23,350 nucleotides of DNA from a virus: positions 1 through 23,350 of IMG/VR virus record IMGVR_UViG_3300044988_000527, one strand, 5' to 3'. The notes beneath the pieces were generated by a model. The model saw only the letters and a program-made list of their open reading frames with translations, was not told the origin of the DNA and did not search any database. A program made the translations under genes and the position numbers. Positions 22,064-23,350 of the stretch are shown in pieces. Within the stretch, counting starts at the first letter, position 1, and each line of letters starts with the position of its first letter.

Positions 22064-22432
22064 TCAAGACTCTCGCTGAAAACGCGGGGTTTGCTGCCTG
22101 GTGTGGCAGCGGGTGACATTGGATCGCGCCGCTTTTGGCGGCCTTCTGCTGTCGTCATCTATCAGGCAGCACTGGCATAGCATGGCCAGCAGCCAAATCT
22201 TGATCGTGATGTCGACGTAATGGTTTGCCACGGCCTTGGCGACGATTTCGGCGGCGCTATGGGCGCCGAGTTTTTCGGCGATGGCTTCTATTTGTTTGCT
22301 GACGCAACCGTAACTACGGTGACAAACGCGGCAAATTTCTTTGCGCATCTTGCCTTCGCAGATCAACAGTAGGACGTCTGATTCTTTCTTGGTCAACGGT
22401 CCGCTGTTGGTTAAGGTGGCGTGGAGTTTCAT
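22064..22432 (-). CDS. LuxR-type (GerE) helix-turn-helix regulator without receiver domain
   Basis: Residues 10-72 of this 122-residue protein follow the GerE pattern: LTKKESDVLLLICEGKMRKEI, then VSKQIEAIAEKLGAHSAAEIV. There is no signal-input domain. The turn of the HTH carries CRVCHRSYGC (C34, C37, C43) and a second cluster CQCC lies at 86-89, so a metal site is possible. Residues 75-90 are hydrophobic (IKIWLLAMLCQCCL). The tail is basic. It is the second gene downstream of the Cro-like gene, the slot where lambdoid phages keep CII or O, so it probably regulates early or lysogenic promoters. Confidence 0.75.
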   Translation of the reverse strand: MKLHATLTNSGPLTKKESDVLLLICEGKMRKEICRVCHRSYGCVSKQIEAIAEKLGAHSAAEIVAKAVANHYVDITIKIWLLAMLCQCCLIDDDSRRPPKAARSNVTRCHTRQQTPRFQRES

Positions 22433-22614: not shown

Positions 22615-22627
22615 ATAGCGATTTTTG

Positions 22628-22888
22628 TTACTGAGTAACAAAATTGTTACCACTGTCAGGCGATTTCATGCCTAACGCCACGGCAATTTTGTAACCGTCG
22701 CCAAACAGGCATTTGCTTTCGCCATTTAGCACCCGGTAAACGGTTTTTGCTTTAAAGCCATATTGCTTGCAGAACATAGGCACAGTCATGCCGTTACGTT
22801 TTAAGTAAGACTTGGCTTGCTTGGCTGTACGTAATCGATTCTTACTAGCAATGGTCACGTTTTTGTCTATACTTTGCTGTTGGGTCAT
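22628..22888 (-). CDS. Cro-like regulator, BcepMu gp16 family
   Basis: The 86-residue product ends in a helix-turn-helix of the BcepMu gp16 type: AKSYLKRNGMTVPMFCKQYG, FKAKTVYRVLNGESKC, DGYKIAVALGMK. It is transcribed leftward from a near-consensus promoter and faces the divergent repressor, the Cro position. No Shine-Dalgarno sequence is seen before the ATG at 22888; the untranslated leader would be about 25 bases and holds operator O1. Its last codons contain a further operator (O4, 22635-22650), so the protein or the repressor may also bind the 3' end of this gene. Confidence 0.75.
   Translation of the reverse strand: MTQQQSIDKNVTIASKNRLRTAKQAKSYLKRNGMTVPMFCKQYGFKAKTVYRVLNGESKCLFGDGYKIAVALGMKSPDSGNNFVTQ
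22635..22650. promoter_or_regulatory. Operator O4, GTAAC-N6-GTTAC at the 3' end of the Cro-like gene
   Basis: GTAACAAAATTGTTAC is the best dyad of the four sites and is nearly identical to O2. A GTTAC at 22627-22631 also pairs with its left half (GTTAC-TGA-GTAAC). It spans the last coding triplets of the Cro-like gene. Confidence 0.6.
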
Positions 22889-22894
22889 GTTTGG

Positions 22895-22910
22895 GTAACT
22901 TTTGTGTTAT
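22895..22910. promoter_or_regulatory. Operator O1, GTAAC-N6-GTTAT
   Basis: GTAACTTTTGTGTTAT, one base from the perfect dyad. It lies just downstream of the predicted start of the leftward promoter (22921-22949), in the untranslated leader of the Cro-like gene. Centre-to-centre distance to O2 is 32 bp, three helical turns. Confidence 0.65.
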
Positions 22911-22920
22911 CTATGGGTAA

Positions 22921-22949
22921 ATCATAGTAACAAAAACGTTACCTGTCAA
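22921..22949 (-). promoter_or_regulatory. Leftward early promoter with operator in its spacer
   Basis: On the minus strand TTGACA (22949-22944) and TATGAT (22926-22921) are 17 bases apart, close to the perfect sigma70 promoter. The spacer is filled by operator O2 (22927-22942), so any bound regulator must block polymerase. It drives the Cro-like gene and presumably the whole early operon down to about 15.0 kb. Confidence 0.8.
22927..22942. promoter_or_regulatory. Operator O2, GTAAC-N6-GTTAC
   Basis: GTAACAAAAACGTTAC is a perfect dyad in its outer five bases and sits exactly between the -35 and -10 of the leftward promoter. Confidence 0.75.
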
Positions 22950-22957
22950 TAGAAAAG

Positions 22958-22973
22958 GTAACAATTTAGTGAC
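22958..22973. promoter_or_regulatory. Operator O3, GTAAC-N6-GTGAC, overlapping the repressor start
   Basis: GTAACAATTTAGTGAC has one mismatch in the right half; the right half contains the GTG start codon (22969) of the repressor gene. Its centre is 31 bp from that of O2. Binding here would block the repressor's own expression, as in autoregulated lambdoid switches. Confidence 0.6.
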
Positions 22974-23350
22974 TATTGAAAATCGGTTGAAAGAAGAGCG
23001 CGAAAGGCTTGGATTTACTCAACCTGATTTTGCTGAATTGGCAGGGACCACCAAAAAAACGGTAATTGATTACGAGAAAGGCAAAACCAGTCCAAAGGCG
23101 AGTTTTTTAGAAACTATCGCCCGCGTGGGTGCTGATGTGAGCTACATCATTACCGGTGTTAAATCCGTCATTGCTGAAAGGCAAGCTGACTATGCAGTTA
23201 CTCCAGACAAGGCAGATTTGCTGGATTGTTTCGAGCATTGCTCGGAGGAGGATAAGCGAACCATTCGGCGGATGGCTGAGCTTTGCGCAAAGGAGGTCGA
23301 AGCCGAAAGCCAAGCTGAGCGAGCGAGCGAGCGAAAAAAGTATCTACGTG
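22969..23350 (+). CDS. XRE-family phage repressor (partial, runs off right edge)
   Basis: I translated from the GTG at 22969; the frame stays open for 127 codons to the edge. Residues 4-62 form a classic Cro/CI-type helix-turn-helix: ENRLKEERERLGFTQPDFAE, then LAGTTKKTVIDYEKGKTSPK, then FLETIARVGADVSYIITG. A helical, Glu/Arg-rich region follows (EDKRTIRRMAELCAKEVEAE). There is no sign yet of a LexA/CI-type self-cleaving peptidase, so induction may instead depend on the antirepressor, but the missing C-terminus could change that. AAGG lies about 10 bases before the GTG. A GAGC tetranucleotide run (23317-23332) occurs in the coding sequence. Confidence 0.8.
   Translation, partial: MTIENRLKEERERLGFTQPDFAELAGTTKKTVIDYEKGKTSPKASFLETIARVGADVSYIITGVKSVIAERQADYAVTPDKADLLDCFEHCSEEDKRTIRRMAELCAKEVEAESQAERASERKKYLR

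Follow-up and report, generated by a model that had tools for sequence, protein, structure and literature searches.

The stretch of DNA analysed here, called the window, is a virus contig of 23,350 bases. It carries P2-type head genes (capsid, terminase, scaffold and portal) and encodes a primase of 887 aa. The capsid reached 198 bits, slightly below the TIGR01551 cut-off of 219.65. Nucleotide searches of a phage collection with the window, and with the region of the related locus L169, gave no match.

Two divergent regulatory genes are positioned near the end of the window. On the plus strand, a gene with a GTG start (22969-23350) is cut by the record end at 127 aa. Its product matches the helix-turn-helix (HTH) family HTH_3 (PF01381, 5.9e-10; 39.5 bits against a gathering score of 23) and thereby belongs to the HTH_3/XRE repressors. 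The best solved relative is the 434 repressor (1per/2or1, 8e-6, residues 3-65 aligned), and the relatives that we collected are 37-93% identical to the window's repressor. The opposing gene on the minus strand (22628-22888, 86 aa) encodes a small HTH protein of the Cro/Ner/Apl-like kind. It belongs to the BcepMu gp16 family (TIGR04111, 4.6e-21; 74.5 bits against a cut-off of 34) and matches phrog_925, an HTH DNA binding protein (1.1e-19). Its structure model has four helices (pLDDT 76). The fold search returned no significant match; weak HTH fold matches included 434 Cro, and the regulator of phage 186 (6vmh) was among the non-significant ones. TAL-effector matches of the gp16 profile were rejected as summed repeat artefacts. 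A gp16-type relative was found in 113 of 121 related loci, and the divergent pair that the first-pass annotation had seen as part of an immunity-type switch was borne out. A further early gene on the minus strand (22064-22432, 122 aa) encodes a protein with a GerE/LuxR-type HTH domain, which matches a PHROG named sigma factor.

This region contains four sites of the form GTAAC-N6-GTTAC within 340 bp. O4 (22635-22650, GTAACAAAATTGTTAC) and O2 (22927-22942, GTAACAAAAACGTTAC) match exactly, while O1 (22895-22910, GTAACTTTTGTGTTAT) and O3 (22958-22973, GTAACAATTTAGTGAC) have one mismatch each, as the first-pass annotation had correctly listed. It had also proposed a motif scan of the genome. The scan covered the 23,350-base record, which is the window itself, and gave two exact and four one-mismatch sites, against 0.01 and 0.41 expected from dinucleotide shuffles. 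The remaining one-mismatch sites (3675 and 14147), together with two-mismatch sites elsewhere, occur at about the chance number. Between 22451 and 23000, where 0.016 sites with no more than one mismatch are expected, we observed four, and 5000 shuffles yielded no exact site at all. The four sites are not due to chance. The centres of O1 and O2 lie 32 bp apart and those of O2 and O3 31 bp apart. This fits the earlier proposal that the sites lie on one DNA face in the window, with the caveat that the distance from O2 to O3 varies among the relatives, being 30 bp in a close one and 30-35 bp across the wider family.

The principal putative repressor operator is O2. It is positioned inside the leftward early (lytic) promoter (22949-22921, minus strand), which has its -35 box TTGACA at 22949-22944, its -10 box TATGAT at 22926-22921 and a 17-base spacer. 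The promoter agrees with the consensus in 11 of 12 positions and reads toward the gp16-type gene. O2 covers 16 of the 17 spacer bases. Profile searches with the repressor gave 57 bacterial and 80 viral loci, from which 116 distinct loci anchored on the early -35 box were kept. The TGTCAA anchor is retained across these relatives. An N6 palindrome with four or five of five pairs stands at exactly the O2 place in 83 of the 116 loci, which supports the position inside the spacer that was claimed at first pass. On average 3.86 of 5 pairs were formed there, compared with 1.13 at upstream background offsets, and the offsets neighbouring O2 gave no palindrome signal in these loci. About one third of the relatives are without a clear N6 palindrome at O2. 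The half-sites at this place vary (TCCCA, TTCAA, GTTCA, GTAAC, TCCCT, GGAAA, GGAAC, GGGTA, GTGCC, GTATC and others). Judged by its kept position, O2 is a predicted operator of the whole family. In the TCCCA class, L102, L109, L115, L129 and L150 additionally carry copies of their own half-site at about +169 and -218 from O2.

The variation of the half-sites follows the repressor. There are about 26 half-site classes among the relatives, and they track residues 29, 31 and 34 of the recognition helix, which in the window repressor reads T28, T29, K31, T32, I34 and D35 at the relevant positions. Half-site distance correlated with differences in repressor residues 28-37 (raw r 0.66). Given the other residues the partial r was still 0.53, with none of 2000 permutations coming close, and for repressor residues outside the HTH the partial correlation was about zero. 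Positions 34, 29 and 31 were the strongest single ones, and the segment aligns with the recognition helix of the 434 repressor. When only neighbours less than 75% identical outside the HTH were used (85 loci), six helix residues predicted the exact half-site in 43 loci, compared with 11 from the remaining protein. The helix ASNSYN, for instance, pairs with TCCCA and ASNTYN with TCCCT. In an independent test, a search of the viral collection with the DNA pattern GTAACN6GTTACCTGTCAA alone matched 31 stretches. A family repressor adjoins 27 of them, every one with a KK[ST]xI helix; in another (L159) a repressor start is recognisable by eye, and three are unrelated.

Comparing operators in relatives with diverged repressors, as suggested at first pass, thus revealed half-sites that differ and that follow the repressor helix. 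Since they do so, the XRE repressor, and not the Cro-like protein, is most likely the reader of the O2 palindrome. The comparison gave no support to a reading of the palindromes by the Cro-like protein, which the earlier interpretation had included. In the literature that we searched, we found no description of predicting a half-site from six helix residues. Such a prediction would also give the immunity group, for P2-like and B3-like phages of many Proteobacteria. The switch in the window is itself of an ordinary phage kind; it is the comparison that yields a testable recognition rule.

O3 is the second putative operator and spans the GTG start codon of the repressor (22969-22971). The zone between +28 and +36 relative to O2 held more copies of a locus's own half-site than expected (z 8.8, with half-site classes permuted among loci), and the control zones showed nothing comparable. 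The right half of O3 is partly the start codon, and the permutation controls for that only in part. Copies of O3 with at least 8 of 10 matching bases were found in 25 of 98 loci, mostly at +31 or +32 and over the repressor start. The position of O3 over the GTG, noted already at first pass, therefore recurs in about a quarter of the loci.

The gp16-type gene has O4 at its 3' end, where a third half-site GTTAC (22627-22631) flanks the site. In the window's clade it stands at -292 from O2. A site of this kind was found in 10 of 121 loci, which form two groups with one common half-site; the other half-site classes were searched and gave no distal site. The second group consists of seven GTAAC-class loci (L161, L169, L176, L178, L181, L182 and L183), in which the site is fixed over the gp16 stop codon at -254 to -272 from O2. 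The site hence follows the gene end and not the distance to O2. The variable distance gives no argument for strict phasing, and looping would be possible. One could explain O4 as a functionless by-product of the last codons of gp16. It is mostly coding, the copy of the window is common to only three close relatives, and most of the family is missing it. Against this, the match is exact in 10 of 10 positions where 0.01 such sites are expected per window, and in the second group the matching site is fixed over a different gp16 stop, with one half outside the coding sequence. We consider a by-product unlikely, and the distal site that the first-pass annotation had placed at the end of the Cro-like gene holds up in both groups. 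TP901-1 is known to have an operator placed distally, where the opposing gene ends, and O4 suggests as much for proteobacterial phages. Directly behind the distal operator, past the gp16 stop, L161, L169 and L181-L183 have triple 11-bp direct repeats of TTTGCACATA.

The remaining site, O1, is palindrome-like, and its role is doubtful. It straddles the first two units of three 11-bp direct repeats (GGGTAACTTTT, GTGTTATCTAT and GGGTAAATCAT; 22893-22925) in the gp16 leader, a candidate Apl/Cox-like site. Because gp16 start and ribosome-binding sequences confound word enrichment in leaders, a lag test was used in its place. The leaders of 53 dissimilar relatives showed direct repeats at lag 10 (z 8.1) and lag 20 (z 4.3), compared with z -0.5 and -0.6 in coding control DNA. 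Tandem repeats of the TTCGTGTGAT type, with 10 bp spacing and units that differ between phages, stand in the gp16 leaders of L019, L087, L100, L105 and others. We infer that the leader repeats may be bound by the gp16-type protein, which more likely acts through those at 22893-22925. This suggests that the second regulator has direct-repeat sites of its own. A family-wide O1 was rejected, with a z of -1.1 for the O1 zone. If O1 were a true repressor operator, the bound repressor would form a roadblock to early elongation just past the transcription start. The 32 bp phasing with O2 and the single mismatch in the window and in L075 speak for such a role, which we nevertheless regard as doubtful, if somewhat less unlikely than a by-product origin of O4. 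O1 has two mismatches in L073, its right half is decayed in one of three clade members, it is absent outside the clade, and it sits in direct repeats, which are kept in their own right. We take O1 as a probable component of the leader repeat array; at the most it would be an auxiliary site for the repressor.

These observations also bear on the complete lambda-like operator logic that was claimed for the four sites. In its full form, the repressor and a gp16-type Cro would both bind O1-O4 with opposite orders of preference. The divergent regulator pair, the tandem sites 32 and 31 bp apart and a gp16 model that is a small HTH protein with 434 Cro among its weak matches would suit this. However, the half-sites track the repressor helix, O1 is confined to one clade and is not conserved in the family, and the leaders have a second, direct-repeat type of site. 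Moreover, the full-length repressor of the close relative L005 (154 aa) was searched for a peptidase domain and contains HTH families only. We therefore did not retain the lambda-like reading, and a full logic of this type is the least probable of the alternatives.

Near its 3' end, the repressor gene shows a peculiarity. A GAGC tetranucleotide tract on the plus strand varies in copy number among close relatives, with 4 copies in the window (23317-23334), 9 in L005 (4349-4384) and 14 in L006 (276-331). This puts the repressor tail in three different reading frames, and slippage or phase variation of the C-terminus is possible. A broader reading would combine both properties, so that repressor-operator pairs of the family obey a readable recognition code of about 26 classes while the tail of the repressor in the window's clade is set by the slipping tract. 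We think this combination improbable, only slightly less so than the full lambda-like logic. If it were true, immunity strength could be phase-variable between lysogens through the tract.

Taken together, we put a probability of about 85% on an immunity switch of a P2-like temperate phage, in which the XRE repressor acts on O2, O3 and O4 and the gp16-type protein more likely on the leader repeats. The immunity switch proposed at first pass thus appears right, on the conservation of O2 and O3 and the covariation with the helix. A dimer of the 434-repressor-like XRE protein would read GTAAC-N6-GTTAC. At O2 it would fill the spacer of the early promoter and block RNA polymerase, which would keep gp16 and the early genes off. 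By occupying O3, which spans the start codon of its gene, it would limit its own synthesis. O4 may make repression stronger in the manner of OD of TP901-1, through a loop with O2/O3 or as a barrier to leak-through transcription. Upon induction the early promoter would fire, and the gp16-type protein on the leader repeats would shut off the repressor promoter. It would act from between the two start sites, as Apl and Cox do in 186 and P2. The search for a rightward repressor promoter in the window gave no convincing match. The candidate is a weak -10 box (TATACT, 22868-22873, plus strand; 8 of 12 consensus positions), which would point towards the early promoter, so that the two would stand face to face as in P2. 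A temperature-sensitive repc mutant of Fc02, a phage of the B3 family, shows that pE, the leftward promoter from which ner is transcribed, is kept silent by the repressor (PMC9936078). A homologous layout therefore works as proposed, for pE and ner.

The B3-like Pseudomonas phages as a whole are among the closest known systems. B3 has homologues of the repressor (ORF18, 36%) and of gp16 (ORF17) in a like divergent arrangement, and a palindrome at the O2 place. Its half-site differs (GTGCC/GTGCA), B3 and Fc02 are transposable, and no distal site was seen in them. Another such system is the 434 repressor with its operators. These likewise consist of symmetric half-sites that flank six central bases and are read by residues of the recognition helix. 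Phage 434 differs from the window by another half-site, a C-terminal oligomerisation and peptidase domain, and a Cro that shares the operators.

In layout, the switches of P2/186 and TP901-1 come nearest to that of the window. TP901-1 has the CI/MOR pair, in which the antirepressor MOR binds CI and not DNA by itself, and the operators OR, OL and OD. OD lies distally within mor (PMC7250872). The window shares with TP901-1 a short repressor that lacks a peptidase domain, one predicted operator that overlaps the lytic promoter and, where the opposing gene ends, a putative distal operator (O4 and its second-group counterparts). In contrast to TP901-1, the window has a putative operator over the repressor start codon and not a central OR, and the phages are proteobacterial.

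In P2-related phages the operators of Apl/Cox are distinct from those of the repressor, lie between the promoters and consist of direct repeats one turn apart (PMC7498355). The likeness of the window to 186/P2 includes the P2-type head genes, predicted repressor operators over the lytic promoter and separate one-turn direct repeats between the promoters, a pattern that recurs at 10-11 bp in the leaders of the family. It differs in its second regulator, a TIGR04111 member instead of an Apl/Cox excisionase, and in the palindrome inside the -35/-10 spacer. Lambda has three tandem operators at the early promoter and a C-terminal autocleavage (peptidase S24) domain. Because O1 is not conserved and the leader repeats, spaced by 10 bp, are more like Apl/Cox sites, the design as read from the sequence resembles not lambda but P2/186 with a TP901-1-like distal operator.
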